In this document: piece after piece, positions 44 through 7,593 of the stretch | Layout: the number at the start of each line of letters is the position of its first letter | How positions within the stretch are numbered: position 1 is the first letter of the stretch | DNA from: a bacterium | Lineage (GTDB): Bacteria > Armatimonadota > Zipacnadia > Zipacnadales > Zipacnadaceae | DNA: 7,593 nt | Direction: 5' to 3' | Assembly (NCBI GenBank): GCA_030603495.1 | Contig: JAUVXR010000052.1 | Span: 1 to 7,593, forward strand | Notes under the pieces: generated by a model | The model's database searches: none | Told to the model about the DNA's origin: nothing | The model's input: only the letters and a program-made list of their open reading frames with translations | Program-made: the position numbers and the translations under genes

Positions 44-1360
44 TCAGCTGCCTGCCGTCAGATCCACCAGGATGAATCCCGACGGACGGATCACACCGAA
101 CGCGGCTCTCATCTCGGCCAGGATGGCCACCATGTTGCGGATAAAGAAGTCCGCGTGGCTATCCGAGACCTGGATGTTCGCTCGCTCGCGGTCCCACACC
201 ACCGCCTTCCGCCAGTCGCCCAGAAGAGCGCTCCCCTCTGCCATCTGCACGTTCTGCACCACCGGGTAGCCCCAGTGCGTTCGCACCCCCTGCCGGATCG
301 GCCCGCCATAGTAATAGCGCCCGTCCTCATCCTGCAGCAGATCGATCGTCTCCCAGTCCGCCGGGTGCATCACCCATGCCGTCGGTATAGTTCGTCCGGT
401 CACCAGCAGAGAGGTGATCGCCTTCCTAGTCGTGGTCAACATGTCCGTATCCCACGCCTGGGCCAGTACTCCAGCGGTGTTGAGCAGCCCAGTAAAGTTC
501 TCACCCACGCCGTTGCCGTTGAGGATCTGGCTCTCAAACTCCTCGGCCAGGTCGTCGCGCAGCTCCGAGTCGATGATGCCCCGAATCTGAGCGACGTCCG
601 ACAGCGCGCGCTTCGTCGCCGGGATCCAGACCGCGATCGTCTTGACCGGCTCGGTCACCTGCAGCCACTCGCTCACACCTTCTGGCTTCTCGCCCGAGAC
701 CTCGCCCGTGGCTCCCGAGTACTCGGTCACGTTGGCCTCTGGGACCGGCTCTGCCTGGGTCACCTGGGTCACCTGGCGCACAAAGTGTACCAGGTCGCTC
801 GTGGTCTGCCGGATGGTCACCAGGGTGCGCAGGTTCAGCGGAGCCCGACCGATCGCTTCATAGATCCGCGTGTAGTCGATCTCCACGAATGCGCCCGCCG
901 AGGCATCATCGCTTCCGACTATCAGCTCCTTCCGGGTCGGGCCCAGACCCAGAAGCGACTTGAACTCGATGGGGGGAGAGTTTAGTCCCCTGGCCCCGTC
1001 CGGTACGCGCCCGCCCGGAGCGATCTGCTTCATCCACGCCTTGAACGTTGGCGCATTCACGAACTGCGCGCCGACCGTTGCCCCCTTGAGTGCACCGGGC
1101 GCCCCGACTGCCGGCTGGTCACCGCCGTTCCCAGCTATGTCCAGACCCGCGCCCAAGTCCAAGACCGCCTTGCGCAGTGCGTCATCGCCCTCGGCCGTCT
1201 TGATCTTCTCTTTCCACTGCTTGGCTTCCGTCAGATAGCCAGCCACCTTCTGCCGCTCATCGTCGGTGAAGTCACGCTTGGCTTCCTCCGCCGCGTCGCA
1301 GATGGCCTTTGCAGCCAGCAAAGCCGCCTGCATCTTCTCTTTCAGTTCTTTCAGGCTCAT
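44..1360 (-). CDS. HK97-family major capsid protein
   Basis: The shell-forming subunit, 438 residues with an ATG start and strong ribosome binding site. Residues 1-60 are charged and probably coiled-coil (delta domain, acting as internal scaffold). The HK97 fold follows, with ILNGNGVGENFTGLL (279-293), MHPADWETIDLLQDEDGRYYYGGP (331-354, family motif), GYPVVQN, LLGDWRKAVVWDR and the C-terminal AFGVIRPSGF. From my memory of HK97 gp5, GSDDASAG (149-156) aligns with the start of mature gp5, placing cleavage near 143-147 and giving a mature chain of about 292-295 residues. In the same alignment Lys225 matches cross-linking Lys169 (SGEKPE against GALKPE), Asn409 matches Asn356, and Glu416 matches Glu363. 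No separate scaffold gene is seen, which fits a delta-domain system. It follows the protease gene directly, the usual order. Confidence 0.96.
   Translation of the reverse strand: MSLKELKEKMQAALLAAKAICDAAEEAKRDFTDDERQKVAGYLTEAKQWKEKIKTAEGDDALRKAVLDLGAGLDIAGNGGDQPAVGAPGALKGATVGAQFVNAPTFKAWMKQIAPGGRVPDGARGLNSPPIEFKSLLGLGPTRKELIVGSDDASAGAFVEIDYTRIYEAIGRAPLNLRTLVTIRQTTSDLVHFVRQVTQVTQAEPVPEANVTEYSGATGEVSGEKPEGVSEWLQVTEPVKTIAVWIPATKRALSDVAQIRGIIDSELRDDLAEEFESQILNGNGVGENFTGLLNTAGVLAQAWDTDMLTTTRKAITSLLVTGRTIPTAWVMHPADWETIDLLQDEDGRYYYGGPIRQGVRTHWGYPVVQNVQMAEGSALLGDWRKAVVWDRERANIQVSDSHADFFIRNMVAILAEMRAAFGVIRPSGFILVDLTAGS
754..776 (-). repeat. Nine-base tandem repeat in the capsid gene
   Basis: The plus strand reads CCTGGGTCA twice in tandem followed by CCTGG (about 2.5 copies). 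It encodes the QVTQVTQ stretch (residues 196-202) just before the predicted E-loop, keeps the frame, and looks like a small slippage duplication. Confidence 0.7.
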
Positions 1361-1383: not shown

Positions 1384-2544
1384 TTATAGACCGTATTCCA
1401 CCATGTCCAAAGCGATTCGAGTGGCCATGACTCCTGGCTTCTCTCTCGACTTACCGTCGCCGGCCTCGTCTTCGATCTCGCCGCTGCCACCACCCAACTC
1501 GCCAAATGCTTCCAGATACGCGCGCAGCATGTCCAGGCCCTTCGCCGTCGCCGCCTTGATTCTGTGGAGAGGGTGCGCGGCTTTAGCACCAGCCACAAAG
1601 ATGTAGGCACCCCTGATCCACTCTGGCCGTGACGTGAACACATAGTTGCCGCCATCATCCAGGCGATAATTCACTTGGTAAGCCTCGTGCTTCCAGTTGA
1701 CCAACAGATGGTCGTCGTAGACTTCCCTGACCCAGGCCCATTCCCCATAGTCCATGTCTGGCCCTTTGGGATTGAATTCTGTCTCGAAAGCGGTAATGAT
1801 GGTTTCTATCAATTTGCTCAAATTCAGCGATTTCTCTGCCTCTGTGGCCGCCTCAAAAGTCCCATCATGAGATCGGCAATGCGTGCGCGCTTCCGCTGCC
1901 GTCCAGTCATCTTTCGGATACCGATAGGCTTGCTCCGTCATCGTCGTCTCGTCCGTCAGCCTTCCCATGATAACACCATAGGTCTTGCCATCATGCTCTC
2001 GGCTAACGCGCCGAAAACTCTCCGACTGAAAGTCCCCAGGATCGCGCAGTCGGCAAGCGTGCTCGTTCGGATACGGCTTCCTGCCCTTGATGTCCACCGT
2101 CCGCGTGTCGATGCCTGCCCCGCGCTGCACCGGTGCCACTCCCCATACGTCGAGTTTCCGCAGAAACTGCACCTCCTGATCCTCGAACTGGCCTCGGGCG
2201 CTGTCCTCGATGTTGAAGGTATACGACCATTCCTGGAGCGGCCCGAGCGCCTTGACCACCTTGTAGTGCTCCAGGCCGCCTTGCGTCTCCATGAAGAACG
2301 CACCTTCTATGATGGCTTTGTCGTCGTTCTCGCGGATGATGCCCTTGCCCACGGGCAACACACCATAGTTGTGGTTCCAGGCCTCGATGAGCGTCTCCTG
2401 CCCATCCTGGAACGCCCCCGGCTCGGTCACGTCCCTGTCATGATCGATGACATTTAGGGTGGCAAACTCGGCCCGGAACTCGCCCGTCTTGTCCGCATCC
2501 GCCTTGAACTCTACTCGTGCCCGATAGGTCTTCCGCTCGCTCAT
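1384..2544 (-). CDS. HK97-type prohead protease with extra C-terminal domains
   Basis: The prohead protease sits inside the immature capsid and removes the capsid protein's N-terminal delta domain. Residues about 8-150 carry the family pattern: FATLNVIDHDRDVTEPGAF (27-45), WNHNYGVLPVG with candidate catalytic His58, LQEWSYTF with candidate nucleophile Ser107, and LDVWGVAPV (131-139), where Asp132 replaces the Glu usual in the EVSxVxxPAN motif. The protein is 386 residues, whereas HK97 gp4-type proteases are about 200-225. The extra length holds a Cys/His-containing segment (about 157-234: KPYPNEHACRLRDP to HCRSHDGTFEAA), a beta-type segment (about 264-325: WAWVREVYDDHLLVNW, YQVNYRLDDGGNYVF), and an acidic, Gly-rich C-terminus. 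The first segment resembles parts of other phage head proteins but has no function I can name. The strong ribosome binding site fixes the start, and the capsid gene follows after 23 bases. Confidence 0.9.
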   Translation of the reverse strand: MSERKTYRARVEFKADADKTGEFRAEFATLNVIDHDRDVTEPGAFQDGQETLIEAWNHNYGVLPVGKGIIRENDDKAIIEGAFFMETQGGLEHYKVVKALGPLQEWSYTFNIEDSARGQFEDQEVQFLRKLDVWGVAPVQRGAGIDTRTVDIKGRKPYPNEHACRLRDPGDFQSESFRRVSREHDGKTYGVIMGRLTDETTMTEQAYRYPKDDWTAAEARTHCRSHDGTFEAATEAEKSLNLSKLIETIITAFETEFNPKGPDMDYGEWAWVREVYDDHLLVNWKHEAYQVNYRLDDGGNYVFTSRPEWIRGAYIFVAGAKAAHPLHRIKAATAKGLDMLRAYLEAFGELGGGSGEIEDEAGDGKSREKPGVMATRIALDMVEYGL

Positions 2545-2548
2545 CTTC

Positions 2549-2557
2549 CACCTCCCC
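2549..2557 (-). promoter_or_regulatory. Strong ribosome binding site of the prohead protease gene
   Basis: GGGGAGGTG on the minus strand ends 4 bases before the ATG at 2544-2542, with its GGAGG core 6 bases away. Its first G is the last base of the preceding gene's TAG stop. Confidence 0.8.
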
Positions 2558-4140
2558 TAGCCGGATGTCGCCCTTGTGACATCCACAGCGATATTGCATC
2601 TGCTCTCCGTTCGGGTAGAGATAACACCACCTATCAACACCTGTACATCGTAGTGCAGGTTCGCCCGCCGCAATTTCGCTGTCTCCACGGCCTTTAGCAC
2701 GAGGGTGATGTTCCCAGCATCCTCATCATCGACCGTGAGCGACCCATTGCCAGCAGTGCCCTCAGCACCATTCAGACGTGTCAGACCTTCTCCTTCAGTG
2801 ATCTGTATGATCGCCGCTGTGTCAACATCGCTCTTGTCGCGCTTGACCGTGAACCAGAGATGCGTCCTGCTGGCAAGACTCCCCAAACCAGTGAGACTTA
2901 CAGACAGATCGTCACCGCGATGGATCGCGATGCGGCTGCCCTCTAGCACCGCCTGAATCTCAGCCGCTGTCTGCGTCAGCGTCCTGGTAACATTGCTCCA
3001 CATACTGGCGATGAGGTTGCCAATGATGCTACCCGCCGTTCCCGCCCCATAAGCCCCCGGCAGAGCGGAAGCCCACGGATCTCCAGCCGCCTGTGCATCT
3101 GTCAGCGCTTTCCCGGTGGACCCGGCAGCTTGATGGTCAGCCGTTGCCTCATTCCAGACCTGATCCGCGATGGCAGACACATCGATCGTAACCACCGCCT
3201 CCGAGATAGCTTCTGTGCTATCGGCAGCAGGCGTGAAGGTGCCCCCGATATCTGACGGCGTACTGGCCGCCTTGTTGAGTAGAGCCTTGAAGAAACCAAG
3301 GATCGTGTTGACGCCAGCTCCCGTAATCGCTCCGATCCGGTTCAGAATCGTCGCCTGATTCGCTGCTGTCGCTAGGGCACTCACATCTGCCTTATACTGA
3401 TCGGGGGCATCGAGGTCTGCTTGTGCCGCAGCAAGTGCCGCCGCCGTCGCCAAACCACTTACATCGGCTCTATACTGAGCTGGATTATCGAGGTCCGCTT
3501 GTGCCGCGTCCAATTTGCTATCGTGAGTTGCAAGCGCCGCCGCTGTAGCTACCGCGTCAAGTAGGAGATCAAGCCTACCATCGTTGATCCAGTCCGTCAG
3601 GATCGCGGCGCGCGCTACCGTGAGTCTCAGTGCCGCCGTGTTCAGGGCGTCCATATCAAGCTCGCCAGCATCACTGATTGGCAACCCGCCCGCTGCATCG
3701 GCCACCGCATCGGGCAGCGCCGTTCCACCAAGCCCGCGTGTTGCAGAATACGCCGAATCAATCAACGCGTTGTTGAGGCCAGCAGCTCGAAAGCCAATGA
3801 TCGGCCCACGCCAAGGGAGAACCCCCGTGCAGAAGCCGGTGAACCAACCAAACCCCTCAGTGTCGTTGTCGATGGTCCCGCCAGAGCCTGATATCTCTAT
3901 CGTGTACATACCATCGCCTTGGTGTGCCCAGTCGTGGACCCCGCCCGTCGTTGGCGTAACGGCTGTCTGAGTAAAGGCCCCCCCTGTGGTGACAAAGTTC
4001 CACACCAGGTCCATGCCCGCCTGGTCATAAACGATACCAGTCTCCCTGCTCTTGAAATCGGTGTCATCAATCAAGGGGAGTATGTTGACCGGCACCTCAG
4101 CCAGCGCTACGTCCACATCCATCCAAATGCTAGGCATCAT
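2557..4140 (-). CDS. Fibre-like phage structural protein with Ala-rich repeats and BppU-like C-terminal domain
   Basis: This 527-residue protein (526 from the second ATG at 4137) is modular. Residues 1-118 form a beta-rich domain of the kind found at the N-terminus of environmental phage fibre proteins. A linker follows with GGTALPDAVADAAGGLP and ISDAGELDMDAL. Residues 196-290 are Ala-rich and probably helical, including two 26-residue repeats. Residues 322-400 carry ADQVWNEATADHQAAGSTGKAL, DPWASALPGAYGAGTAGSII and MWSNVTRTLTQ, spacer motifs I know from tail fibres. Residues 405-523 resemble the Ig-like N-terminal domain of BppU-type baseplate proteins (IHRGDDLSVSLTGLG, LWFTVKRDKSDVD, LHYDVQVLIGG, IAVDVTRA). 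The low-complexity Ala/Asp/Gly composition suits an elongated, possibly trimeric fibre. It starts 6 bases after the preceding stop, and its own stop overlaps the next gene's ribosome binding site. Fibre character is well supported; placement in the head and any receptor role are inferred. Confidence 0.75.
   Translation of the reverse strand: MMPSIWMDVDVALAEVPVNILPLIDDTDFKSRETGIVYDQAGMDLVWNFVTTGGAFTQTAVTPTTGGVHDWAHQGDGMYTIEISGSGGTIDNDTEGFGWFTGFCTGVLPWRGPIIGFRAAGLNNALIDSAYSATRGLGGTALPDAVADAAGGLPISDAGELDMDALNTAALRLTVARAAILTDWINDGRLDLLLDAVATAAALATHDSKLDAAQADLDNPAQYRADVSGLATAAALAAAQADLDAPDQYKADVSALATAANQATILNRIGAITGAGVNTILGFFKALLNKAASTPSDIGGTFTPAADSTEAISEAVVTIDVSAIADQVWNEATADHQAAGSTGKALTDAQAAGDPWASALPGAYGAGTAGSIIGNLIASMWSNVTRTLTQTAAEIQAVLEGSRIAIHRGDDLSVSLTGLGSLASRTHLWFTVKRDKSDVDTAAIIQITEGEGLTRLNGAEGTAGNGSLTVDDEDAGNITLVLKAVETAKLRRANLHYDVQVLIGGVISTRTESRCNIAVDVTRATSG
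3352..3507 (-). repeat. Two tandem 78-base (26-residue) repeats in the fibre-like gene
   Basis: Two direct repeats with a 78-base period encode residues 212-237 and 238-263 of the fibre-like protein. They share 20 of 26 residues around the core AAQADLD.P.QY.ADVS.LATAA. The DNA also matches closely, for example the stretches near 3383 and 3461. A weaker relative (AAALATHDSKLD) precedes them. The pattern suggests duplication of a helical spacer that could lengthen the fibre shaft. Confidence 0.8.
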
Positions 4141-4147
4141 TCACCTT
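4141..4147 (-). promoter_or_regulatory. Ribosome binding site before tandem ATG ATG
   Basis: AAGGTGA on the minus strand begins within the stop codon of the preceding gene and abuts ATG ATG at 4140-4135. The GG is 3 bases from the first ATG and 6 from the second, so spacing favours the second ATG (4137). The difference is one residue. Confidence 0.5.
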
Positions 4148-5478
4148 CACTGTTGCTGCGCGTAGCAGTACCAGGGATTACCCTCCGCCTCCTCTTCGTA
4201 AAGTATCGTCAAGAAGGGCTGATATTCTGGGGTCCCTGCCTCCTTGCTATAGATGAGTAGGTATTGCAATCCCTCTGCCGGTTCAGAAGCGCTCTTGTCA
4301 AGACTACTCCGCAATGAATAGTAGGTGTTTCCCTCTGGGTCTGGCCAGGTGATATCCAAATTCGGGCTGGGATAGTTCGTATTGATAGAGATCCCTGAGG
4401 TATTACGCCAAATGGCGTCGTCCTGTGCCCCCGCCAGACATGCATCGTAGGCGGCCTCTCGGTTACCGTCGGAGAGTGGGTCTTGCGCCGACCAGTCCTG
4501 CTTCACGATCTGCACGTCGAAATCGGCTGTATCGGAATCGTCCTCCTGACATGTCAGGACTAGGTTCACTTGGAGGATTGGGTTGGCACCAATCGCACTT
4601 GTATCAAATTTCAGGAATCCACGATAGACGTAGAAATACGGCTCAGTATGTCGCTGACCAACAGCGATGTAGGTCTCCCCAGTCGCAAAGGACTGGGAGG
4701 TTGCCCTCGCCTCCAAATAGTTATCCTCGACCCTCCCTCTTACCTGCCCGTCTACTGTGTCGCCTGTGAAGTCTGGGTCAATGACTATGGGATAAGCAGC
4801 CTGAGCCAGCTCGGTCACCGGTATGCCTGTGTAGAGAACCCCGTCTTGCCAATACCTACGGCACGTTAGCGGCTCATCCTTGGCATCCCAGGCTGTCGGC
4901 GGAGGCGACCAGTGCTCGGAGATGTTGTATTCGCCCTCAACCCAGCCCTTAGGTAGAGAGACGCCGCTCACCGTGGTCTCAAGCATCAAGTAATCGCCAG
5001 CCTTGGCTTGGGGAATCCTTGGCCGCCTCTTCAGGGTTAGCCGTTCCCTGTAGCCAGTCTTAGTGATGCGCCGCTCCATGCGCCAGTCGTCGTTCTCTGC
5101 AACCAACGCGTCCCCGACCTTGTTGCCCAGCGGCACAGCGACCTGGCCACCGATCAGCCGGCCCGATGAGGGCCTGAACACCCCGATCTGTCGGGTATGC
5201 TGGCTGTAGCTTCCGAGTCGTACAACCCCCTCGTCGGTGATCTCGACATTCAGTCCGGGGCAACGCCATAAACCACGCGCCACATCATGCGCGGGCGTGG
5301 TGTCGATGGGTTGCCATTCACTGTGCTCGTCCTGATAGTGGCATGGGCCGCCGGAGAAGAGAGCCAGAATCTTCCCGTCGGGACGACGCAGATGCACGGA
5401 GCCACGCGCCCGTTTTATGACGGCCCACGCCGTGAGTTCGGAGTGCATCTCAAGAACGCGCTGAACCCAGTTAGCCAC
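4147..5478 (-). CDS. Beta-rich phage protein with DNRLRE/CBM96-like domain, putative virion surface protein
   Basis: This 443-residue protein has a GTG start with a good ribosome binding site. The N-terminal half (about 20-225) is beta-rich, with segments such as KILALFSGGPCHYQDE and EWQPID of a kind I associate with proteins that carry DNRLRE domains. The junction AAYPIVIDPDFTGD (228-240) is typical of sequence just before a DNRLRE/CBM96 beta-sandwich. The domain follows at about 240-428, with the hallmark YRGFLKFDTSAI (285-296) and a closing strand EYQPFLTILYEEE. Such domains occur in secreted, cell-wall and structural proteins and some bind carbohydrate. No signal peptide or membrane helix is seen, as expected for a virion protein. 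It lies between portal and the fibre-like gene, with short gaps on both sides, so it is probably made with the head genes. The role (capsid decoration, neck fibre or glycan adhesin) is inferred. GC in sampled lines is about 53% against about 67% in portal, suggesting separate acquisition. Confidence 0.75.
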   Translation of the reverse strand: MANWVQRVLEMHSELTAWAVIKRARGSVHLRRPDGKILALFSGGPCHYQDEHSEWQPIDTTPAHDVARGLWRCPGLNVEITDEGVVRLGSYSQHTRQIGVFRPSSGRLIGGQVAVPLGNKVGDALVAENDDWRMERRITKTGYRERLTLKRRPRIPQAKAGDYLMLETTVSGVSLPKGWVEGEYNISEHWSPPPTAWDAKDEPLTCRRYWQDGVLYTGIPVTELAQAAYPIVIDPDFTGDTVDGQVRGRVEDNYLEARATSQSFATGETYIAVGQRHTEPYFYVYRGFLKFDTSAIGANPILQVNLVLTCQEDDSDTADFDVQIVKQDWSAQDPLSDGNREAAYDACLAGAQDDAIWRNTSGISINTNYPSPNLDITWPDPEGNTYYSLRSSLDKSASEPAEGLQYLLIYSKEAGTPEYQPFLTILYEEEAEGNPWYCYAQQQ

Positions 5479-5485
5479 CCGTTGA

Positions 5486-5492
5486 CCCTCTC
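5486..5492 (-). promoter_or_regulatory. Ribosome binding site selecting a GTG start
   Basis: GAGAGGG on the minus strand lies 7 bases before GTG at 5478-5476, in the short gap after the portal stop. It supports the GTG start over the in-frame ATG ten codons downstream (5448-5446). Confidence 0.7.
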
Positions 5493-5496
5493 TATC

Positions 5497-7422
5497 TCAC
5501 CGCCCAAAGCTCACCGAACATTGACAATTCGCCACCTGTTCCGCTCCGCCACTCGGATCCCCGGGCCAACGCATTCCATTGGGAAACAGCTCCCCGATGC
5601 CCACGGTCGTTCCGTCCAGGGCAGCGTGATCCTCTCGTGGATTCGCGCTGTTCACCTGCCACCTCTTGCTCTTTAGCCCGCCCTGCTTCGCCGCTTCCTG
5701 CGAGCCAAAGTTGGCTGCCGTGGTCACCTTGCTCCGCGCGATCTCCACCGCCCGCACGCCCAGGGCCAGCTCGAATAGATGCTGTATCGCGCTGCGCGGC
5801 TCGTCCTCGGTCAGCGCATTGGCCACTCCATCGCGCGTCGTTGCATTGATCTCCTCCGCTGCGATTCGAGCATTCTCAGCCAGCCAGGGCAGCATCAGGT
5901 CCTCGTCCATCTCGGTCTCGAGGTCCGCCGCCAGCCTCTGCGCCCAGGCTCCCGCTGTCAACACATTCAATCGTAGAAGATCGGCCCCTAGCTCGCCGTT
6001 CCACCGGTCCGCATCGTGCCACACCTCCCCGATGAATTGCTTGGCTTTTATCCTGCTGACAATCGCCGCCCCCTGCCGGCGAAAGTGCCCCGATAGCACC
6101 TCGAGCCATTTCGCCTCGTGCCGTTCCCGCAGCGGCAGATAGGCGGTATCCACGTGGCCCGGCGCCGCCTTGGCCACATGCGCGTGGCCTATCGCCTTCG
6201 GCGCCGTATCCCGTGGCGAACCCTGCCCTCCAACCAGCACGTTGAGCGGCGTCCCCAACTCGGCTGCATCGCCCCCCATGCTGGGCAGATTCATCCGCGC
6301 GCGTCCCTCGTCCGGCGTCATCCAGGACCGCCCCACTGCGCTCTGCAGCGCCTTGGTCTGGTCGTCGAACGATCCTTGAAGCTTCGCCTGGATGTTGAAC
6401 TCCACGTAGACACCCTTCGTGTCCGCAAAGTCGGGCAGCACTTGCAGCTCGATATCCTGCTCGATCATCGCCAGCCACGGGCCCAAGCTGTCCTGATACA
6501 GATTCTTGTGCTGTTCCCGGATGTTGGAGAACGTCGCGTTCTCGAGTATTCCCACCATTGGCAGAGGAATGTGGTAGGCCCGCGCGCACTCCTCCCTGGT
6601 CAGCCTCCGCCCTTGAAGGTATTGGCTCTCCTGTGCGTTGAAGGTGGTCTGCGTCCAGGTCATCCCCTCCTCGAGGATGGCCGTCTTCCCACTGTTATCT
6701 GCCCCACTGTACAGAGCCTCGAACTCTGCCTTGAACCGCTCCCGCGCTGTCTGAGACCACGCTGGCGAGTCCGCCGGCCGCTCGATGATGCCCCCCATCC
6801 TGGCCGCATTGGCCCAGAACGACTCCCGATAGTCCCCGGCCGCGTGCTCTTCGGCCAGCACCCGCCTCAGGGTCTCCAATGGCGAGAGTCCCGAGATGGC
6901 GTTCTCCGCGTTGTAGCCCCGAAAGTGCACTATCCCCTCGGGCGCCACCTTGAGCAACCTGCCCCCGATGGTCACTTCATACTGCCTGGGCATGAGTCCG
7001 CCCTTGGTGATCACGTATGGCGCCGGCACCCGCAGTAGCCCCATGGGACCGTTCGCTGGCTTCACCTTGAGCCAGAAGGCATTGAAATAGACTCCCAGAT
7101 CCCCCATCAGCGCCTGGATCAGATGATACCGCGTCACCTTGAACTCAGGCGGCAGCGGCCGACCTAGCAATTGCGCCAGGGGGTGATCGCGCAGCCGCTT
7201 GCGGTCCGTCTCGGTCACCCGCCGGAAGACGTGCAATCCCAACTGGGCAATGTTCCGGGCCAGGAAATCCACGCAGGTCCTGACGTTTGGCTGGGTCCGG
7301 TAGAGCGTCGCATAGTCATAGTAGTGCGTGTCATAGAGGCGGAGTCGCCCATACCGCACAGACGGCATCCACCCCGTCTCGAGATCTGCCAGCCTCCCCA
7401 GGCTCTGCACCACTGCCGGCAT
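5497..7422 (-). CDS. Phage portal protein with C-terminal MuF-type head-morphogenesis domain
   Basis: Portal proteins form the dodecameric ring at one capsid vertex through which DNA is packaged and ejected. The product from the chosen start is 641 residues, against roughly 400-450 for a plain HK97-type portal. Residues about 15-395 look like the portal family: an N-terminal helix region (NVRTCVDFLARNIAQLGL), YRESFWANAARMGGII, a region near LTREECARAYHIPLPMVGIL, and the MTPDEGRARMNLP segment near 368-380. After a Gly/Pro/Ala linker (about 395-430) come a helical stretch and then a MuF-type domain at about 556-639: RAVEIARSKVTTAANFG, HAALDGTTV, FPNGMRWPGDP and the terminal NCQCSVSF, matching the family's NCRC-type ending. 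The start at 7422 has a ribosome binding site and overlaps the upstream stop. The next start lies 18 bases after the stop. Portal identity is high confidence; the domain edges are approximate. Confidence 0.93.
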   Translation of the reverse strand: MPAVVQSLGRLADLETGWMPSVRYGRLRLYDTHYYDYATLYRTQPNVRTCVDFLARNIAQLGLHVFRRVTETDRKRLRDHPLAQLLGRPLPPEFKVTRYHLIQALMGDLGVYFNAFWLKVKPANGPMGLLRVPAPYVITKGGLMPRQYEVTIGGRLLKVAPEGIVHFRGYNAENAISGLSPLETLRRVLAEEHAAGDYRESFWANAARMGGIIERPADSPAWSQTARERFKAEFEALYSGADNSGKTAILEEGMTWTQTTFNAQESQYLQGRRLTREECARAYHIPLPMVGILENATFSNIREQHKNLYQDSLGPWLAMIEQDIELQVLPDFADTKGVYVEFNIQAKLQGSFDDQTKALQSAVGRSWMTPDEGRARMNLPSMGGDAAELGTPLNVLVGGQGSPRDTAPKAIGHAHVAKAAPGHVDTAYLPLRERHEAKWLEVLSGHFRRQGAAIVSRIKAKQFIGEVWHDADRWNGELGADLLRLNVLTAGAWAQRLAADLETEMDEDLMLPWLAENARIAAEEINATTRDGVANALTEDEPRSAIQHLFELALGVRAVEIARSKVTTAANFGSQEAAKQGGLKSKRWQVNSANPREDHAALDGTTVGIGELFPNGMRWPGDPSGGAEQVANCQCSVSFGR

Positions 7423-7593
7423 CAGGAAAGCACCTGCACAAAGTCGATGTTCGCCACGTCGATCAGTACCTCGCCATCCATCGGGACCACCTCGCCACGC
7501 GCTTTGAGCAACTGTGCATTCCGCAGCACCAGATACCCTCTGCGACCGAAGGCTGGCCTTCTGCGCTGCCACAGCATCCCACGGAAGGACTTG
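7422..7593 (-). CDS. 3' end of a small phage gene upstream of portal, function unknown (partial)
   Basis: An open frame enters from the right edge and runs 56 codons to a TGA at 7424-7422. That stop overlaps the portal ATG by one base (TGATG), the usual sign of translational coupling. The visible peptide begins KSFRGMLWQRR and ends ANIDFVQVLS; its middle is rich in hydrophobic beta-like stretches (GYLVLRNAQLL, DGEVLIDVANID). No membrane segment or catalytic motif is visible and I do not recognise the family. An internal ATG at 7577-7575 would give a complete 51-residue protein, but the bases before it are a poor ribosome binding site, so the gene probably starts outside the window. Small genes between the large terminase and portal are common in HK97-type phages, so a packaging or head-assembly accessory role is possible but not shown. 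Confidence 0.6.
   Translation of the reverse strand, partial: KSFRGMLWQRRRPAFGRRGYLVLRNAQLLKARGEVVPMDGEVLIDVANIDFVQVLS
7431..7435 (-). promoter_or_regulatory. Ribosome binding site of the portal gene
   Basis: AGGTG on the minus strand lies 8 bases before the ATG at 7422-7420. It lies inside the last codons of the upstream gene. It favours 7422 over the in-frame ATG at 7572, which would add 50 residues encoded by sequence that belongs to the upstream gene in another frame. Confidence 0.55.

Follow-up and report, generated by a model that had tools for sequence, protein, structure and literature searches.

How do two genes for surface- or fibre-type proteins come to lie between the portal and the prohead protease of a phage, and what might their products do there? 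The locus bears on a wider open question, namely how phages swap receptor-binding proteins between unrelated virions with the fit intact. The window, by which we mean the whole stretch of DNA analysed, is an entire 7,593-bp contig from a 2.67-Mb, 62-contig genome bin. It carries five co-directional genes, all on the minus strand, listed here from portal to capsid:

5497-7422, minus strand: portal with a Mu-F-like C-terminal domain, 641 aa from the start common to the sibling phage L116
4147-5478, minus strand: DNR, putative adhesin, 443 aa, beta-rich body plus C-terminal tag (NCBIfam DNRLRE_dom; AlphaFold)
2557-4140, minus strand: FIB, fibre-like protein, 527 aa, with 45 viral relatives
1384-2544, minus strand: S78-type prohead protease with an extra C-terminal region (clear PHROGs match, phrog_80, 9.8e-12; weak Pfam match, PF04586, 5.6e-4)
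44-1360, minus strand: HK97-type major capsid protein (PF05065, 1.3e-45)

In HK97-type head modules the portal is usually, if not strictly, followed by the protease with no intervening gene. Homologues of portal, protease and capsid are present here in that order, and 2.9 kb with two genes interrupts the step from portal to protease. The inserted pair is set off by gaps of 18, 6 and 12 nt, and we found no internal terminators or promoters above chance in the operon. The portal matched PF04860 at 4e-81 and, at its C terminus, Phage_Mu_F at 1.5e-5, which is under the Pfam cut-off. The most similar portal in GenBank (46% identity) belongs to Arthrobacter phage LittleTokyo, in which portal, protease and capsid are contiguous. 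Given the tight minus-strand operon and the uninterrupted order in LittleTokyo, the observation that prompted this analysis, made in a sequence-only reading, stands: two extra genes lie inside the head operon, from portal to protease. Portal/Mu-F-like fusions also occur in Arthrobacter phages, one record being named 'portal and MuF-like fusion protein', and a small ORF (7422-7577, minus strand) directly upstream of the portal is kept in the sibling phage (L116:2675-2905).

The first inserted gene, DNR, and its junction with the second comprise the following features:

4204-4728, minus strand: DNRLRE/CBM96 domain of DNR, residues 251-425 (NCBIfam and CBM structure matches)
4150-4182, minus strand: tag T1, GNPWYCYAQQQ, DNR residues 433-443 (pLDDT 32-39, a free tail in the model)
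4141-4149, minus strand: TGA stop plus 6-nt junction to the FIB start, in the same frame

DNR residues 251-425 matched DNRLRE_dom at 1.5e-8 (34.8 bits against a cut-off of 34). The AlphaFold model of DNR (mean pLDDT 83.6) was confident save for the tag (residues 432-443, the last 12), and it matched a chondroitin-sulfate-binding CBM (8wab; Z 15.3, rmsd 3.5, 173 aligned) and an alginate-binding CBM (7vbo; Z 13.0, rmsd 3.4, 167 aligned). The domain and structure matches bear out the DNRLRE/CBM96-like identity first proposed for this protein, and the two CBM structures make it likely that DNR binds a glycan. By model comparison, the N-terminal part weakly resembled sandwich domains of sugar enzymes. 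Sequence searches of the PDB with DNR, FIB and an N1 profile (N1 being the N-terminal domain of FIB) gave no useful match. We found 14 viral relatives of DNR and none in GenBank phages. Three relatives, 65% identical, are without the tag (L004, L005 and L006); the first two run into long Thr/Ser repeat linkers, (STTTTT)n, and then the contig end, and the third has a differing C-terminal part. Additionally, a 2,106-residue open frame begins with a DNR-type body (L009:6001-12321).

FIB, the second inserted gene, is divided as follows:

3766-4140, minus strand: N1, candidate receiver domain, about residues 1-125, Ig-like beta-sandwich (alignments, model, fold search)
3361-3507, minus strand: two 26-residue repeats in the linker (69-nt repeats, 77% identical, spacing 78)
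2560-2928, minus strand: C-terminal domain, common to L116 and in part to L017

From N1, the protein continues through the repeat linker and a probably helical stretch to a C-terminal domain that looks beta-rich by sequence. FIB matched no Pfam or NCBIfam family, and its C terminus gave a weak match only (phrog_1084, E 0.1). N1 was modelled as an Ig-like sandwich (pLDDT 73-92), and its viral look-alikes in a fold search included baseplate components, BppU-domain proteins and a tail fibre; several BFVD matches named BppU or baseplate component had E values of about 1e-3 to 1e-2. A BppU-like domain had been proposed for FIB, its place unstated. The fold look-alikes would place it in the N-terminal domain; FIB had no significant sequence match to the BppU profile in Pfam, and the gene lies between portal and protease, not next to Dit/Tal in a tail-tip module as BppU does. 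Given its BppU-like look, N1 itself could anchor to the virion, a point against the docking model set out below. Across 45 FIB loci in IMG/VR, N1 is 48-82% identical and the remainder divergent, with lengths of roughly 180-1,500 aa, repeats and coiled-coil-like linkers. One type of C-terminal module is common to 51 of the 89 fibres bearing N1 or either of two other N-terminal domains, N2 and N3, and the fibre C terminus is a separate module. In GenBank phages the FIB match was limited to a 68-residue linker in MW202621, and none of 60 other genomes related to the host bin contained FIB.

The gene directly upstream of FIB is wholly different between phages, yet it often ends in GNPWYxYAQQ; in the window this peptide, T1, is GNPWYCYAQQQ. 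A DNA scan for T1 across 2.9 million viral contigs (IMG/VR) returned 35 stretches, some from near-identical phages, and N1 lay downstream of all 35, immediately in 33 and with one extra gene between in two. We also collected 37 distinct N1 loci without reference to the tag: T1 lay upstream within 900 nt in 28 of the 37 and within 250 nt in 24, compared with 0 of 2,257 control windows of 250 nt, and a clear tag was absent at 9. DNR relatives without a downstream N1 were also without the tag. We found no description of such tags in the open-access literature. At two loci (L072 and L094, on the same contigs as L053 and L054), the tag-bearing ORF continues 27 residues beyond the tag and an extra small gene separates it from N1; a similar extra gene is present in L055.

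The tag sits at a gene junction, and the body swaps described below end beside it, as might be expected of a DNA-level feature, either a recombination hot spot or a translation signal for FIB, rather than a functional peptide. We regard this explanation as highly improbable. At the G, P and A positions of T1 in 28 junctions, the fourfold-degenerate third bases had an entropy of 1.85-1.99 bits against 0-0.22 for the amino acid, and the regular expression used to collect the junctions constrains amino acids, not third bases. Fixed amino acids combined with random third codon positions argue that selection acts on the peptide and not on the DNA, and on this codon-position analysis we rejected a DNA-level junction signal as largely refuted. 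The reading frame and the gap from tag to FIB also differ between loci. Conservation begins abruptly at the first G of T1, and the preceding eight residues are highly variable.

Exchange of the body in front of the tag was seen directly in L116, a sibling of the window phage with the same gene order, from a contig whose bin bears the label Dehalococcoidia. The two phages share 93.6% identity in the portal, 93.2% in FIB, 94.5% in the protease and 95.4% in the capsid. In L116 the DNR slot holds a protein of 386 residues that combines DUF2341 and LamG lectin domains, and in the window the exchanged piece is:

4186-5498, minus strand: segment replaced by an unrelated adhesin body in L116 (DNA homology breaks)

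DNA similarity between the phages ends at the portal stop codon and restarts at window position 4185, beside the tag. The 11-residue tag is the sole match between DNR and the L116 adhesin (91%). Among all tagged proteins, 51 bodies fell into 26 BLAST families, some of which may be distant LamG relatives, and the bodies were unrelated in 37 of the 40 most similar N1 pairs. Together, the CBM folds, the LamG lectin bodies in relatives and the recurrence of the pair support the earlier suggestion of a putative glycan-binding adhesin cassette. The L116 phage, a siphophage, possesses a complete tail module that includes a separate tail-tip protein with a tail-fibre-like C-terminal domain; the adhesin module is therefore additional there. 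Directly after the capsid, the sibling phage (L116:10109-12510; G111:C45 25873-28909) has three consecutive glycosyltransferase-like genes (family match for the first), which possibly serve glycosylation of the virion or the host surface. The start of the sibling phage contig (G111:C45 38780-41435) has two adjacent similar ParB/DNA-methylase-like genes, recognized by eye.

We rejected host assignment from the genome bins. The rpoB genes of the two bins (G000 and G111) are 47% identical, yet DNA identity between the phage contigs, leaving the swapped segment aside, is about 92-94%; with bins so far apart holding sibling phages, at least one phage contig is probably mis-binned (G000 versus G111; L127, L128).

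T1 and N1 are not the only such combination. At L007, what comes after a DNR relative with the ending IPIFMAQYRQRWN is another N-terminal domain, N2. A search with N2 showed that the upstream genes mostly end in (I/L)PVxMxQYRQRW (T2), on unrelated bodies, and a blind scan for IPVxMxQYRQRW found N2 downstream in 6 of 6 cases. The N2 loci had no T1-like tag upstream, and sequences ahead of N1 matched T2 at no more than 5/10. Three body families, the DNR/DNRLRE family among them, have both T1 and T2 members, each followed by the matching domain. Upstream of a third domain, N3, the proteins have Gly/Leu-rich ends (T3; for example, GPLIGGRLV) in a looser pairing, and T3/N3 likely represents a third tag/receiver pair. 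Profile comparison related N1 to N2 (probability 78%, E 1.9e-5) and detected no similarity of N3 to either. At one N1 locus (L036:5294-5989) the upstream gene ends in IPIAMSSYKQQ, intermediate between T1 and T2.

We consider it probable that the pair forms a two-gene modular adhesion fibre, in which a tagged, exchangeable adhesin docks through T1 on the N1 domain of a FIB stalk. The upstream protein would be the adhesin, CBM96-like and putatively glycan-binding in the window phage; GNPWYxYAQQ would be its free C-terminal tail and serve as the docking peptide; and FIB would be the fibre stalk, with the Ig-like N1 as receiver. Any body bearing the tag could then be mounted on N1, and recombination would exchange an entire body at a time, everything between the preceding stop codon and the tag, keeping tag and receiver together as a connector. 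An AlphaFold model of tag and N1 in one chain (a monomer, from a shallow alignment of 32 sequences) left the tag disordered, with a pLDDT of about 40; a model of this kind would not reveal docking on a trimer. For the broader generalization the balance tips only slightly in favour: uncultivated tailed phages would share orthogonal connector pairs by which dozens of unrelated lectins and CBMs are mounted and passed between phages with unrelated virions, whatever the position of the module. There would be at least two such pairs, and probably three, each matching a short C-terminal peptide to one fibre N-terminal domain.

Because tag and N-terminal domain are adjacent in the DNA, part of their linkage would arise without any contact, and it is conceivable that adjacency accounts for all of it, with the tag docking instead on another virion protein, such as the portal, the capsid or a tail protein. 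The N1 loci at which the tag is absent would fit this explanation, which we judge unlikely. The portals of phages that share a tag are unrelated (PF04860 type, phrog_104 and phrog_1216), whereas their N1 domains remain 48-82% identical, so N1 is the constant partner of the tag. Furthermore, different tags pair with different N-terminal domains, and body families switch tag accordingly.

Alternatively, FIB need not be a permanent stalk; it might be a Tfa-like assembly chaperone or transient cap that recognizes the C terminus of an upstream fibre. Gene order and polarity are as in fibre-chaperone pairs, a tag at the fibre C terminus would suit a recognition site, and host-recognition modules with cognate chaperones are common to distant phages (PMC10579305). 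Nevertheless, the size range of FIB relatives, their repeats and coiled-coil-like linkers and the shared C-terminal module give them the look of structural fibres, and the upstream bodies have the appearance of folded lectins instead of trimeric fibres. Searches of Pfam, PHROGs and NCBIfam, with matches taken up to E 1, assigned FIB to no Tfa-type chaperone family. The chaperone explanation appears quite improbable to us, although it is, with linkage by adjacency, a chief competitor of docking, and we retain the adhesin-on-stalk reading.

A related question is where on the virion such a fibre would be displayed. The sequence-only reading had taken gene position to suggest synthesis during head assembly and display on the capsid, portal or neck. 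This alternative is compatible with docking of the tag on N1, and three phages (the window phage, L116 and L017) do have the module between portal and protease or capsid, while in L029, L032 and L043 it separates protease from capsid (L032 being the only record of these in which the capsid was itself located). In addition, the sibling phage L116 already has a tail-tip protein of its own, and two-gene, probably glycan-binding turrets are known on the head of HFTV1 (PMC12494034). However, a search for the gene pair across phages showed that it is not confined to the head locus: it recurs after the tape measure, next to tail genes (L023 and L026), and also between terminase and portal (L039), after a head-closure protein (L046) and 3-9 kb past the capsid (L022, L026, L028, L044 and, if its record is circular, L052). 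The resemblance of N1 to baseplate and BppU proteins likewise points away from the head. As the same module occurs at many late-gene sites, its position says little on head display, and the argument for display from position fails by the criterion which the sequence-only reading itself had set, namely finding the pair in tail modules; gene position would not in itself decide between head and tail. Display on the head is a possibility that we hold to be doubtful.

If the docking model is true, the pairing of a short tag with its own receiver domain would explain how receptor-binding proteins move between unrelated virions across a large set of uncultivated phages. T1, T2 and T3 also provide sequence handles for adhesins that domain libraries do not recognize. 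The varied positions of the module are a warning that virion location is not readable from gene position.

Several known systems resemble parts of this arrangement. In the T-even/S16 gp37-gp38 long tail fibre, as proposed here, a separate and exchangeable adhesin protein is mounted on a fibre; that system is tail-specific, and we know of no shared short C-terminal tag in it. Its tip is named as gp38 (PMC12892980). Fibre and Tfa-type chaperone modules are likewise two-gene host-recognition modules that move between unrelated phages, but the partner is a chaperone and there are no matched sets of tags and receivers (PMC10579305). The turret base and turret head proteins of HFTV1 form a two-protein, probably glycan-binding appendage, in that case on the head; the available part of the account reports no tag system, and our comparison is by description (PMC12494034). 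DNRLRE/CBM96 modules (8wab and 7vbo) share the fold and domain family of the C-terminal half of DNR, whereas in DNR the domain has an N-terminal beta domain and a phage tag attached to it. A parallel to FIB, whose N-terminal domain looks BppU-like, is offered by the baseplate of the lactococcal phage TP901-1, in which the neighbouring ORF48 and ORF49 encode the BppU/BppL (RBP) tripod and the upstream protein uses its C-terminal domain to anchor the receptor-binding trimer encoded downstream (PMC3893620). In TP901-1, a loop of the folded BppU domain holds the RBP trimer, so that the downstream protein forms the tip; here, by contrast, a 10-residue tail is carried by many unrelated bodies, and the upstream protein would be the exchangeable adhesin.
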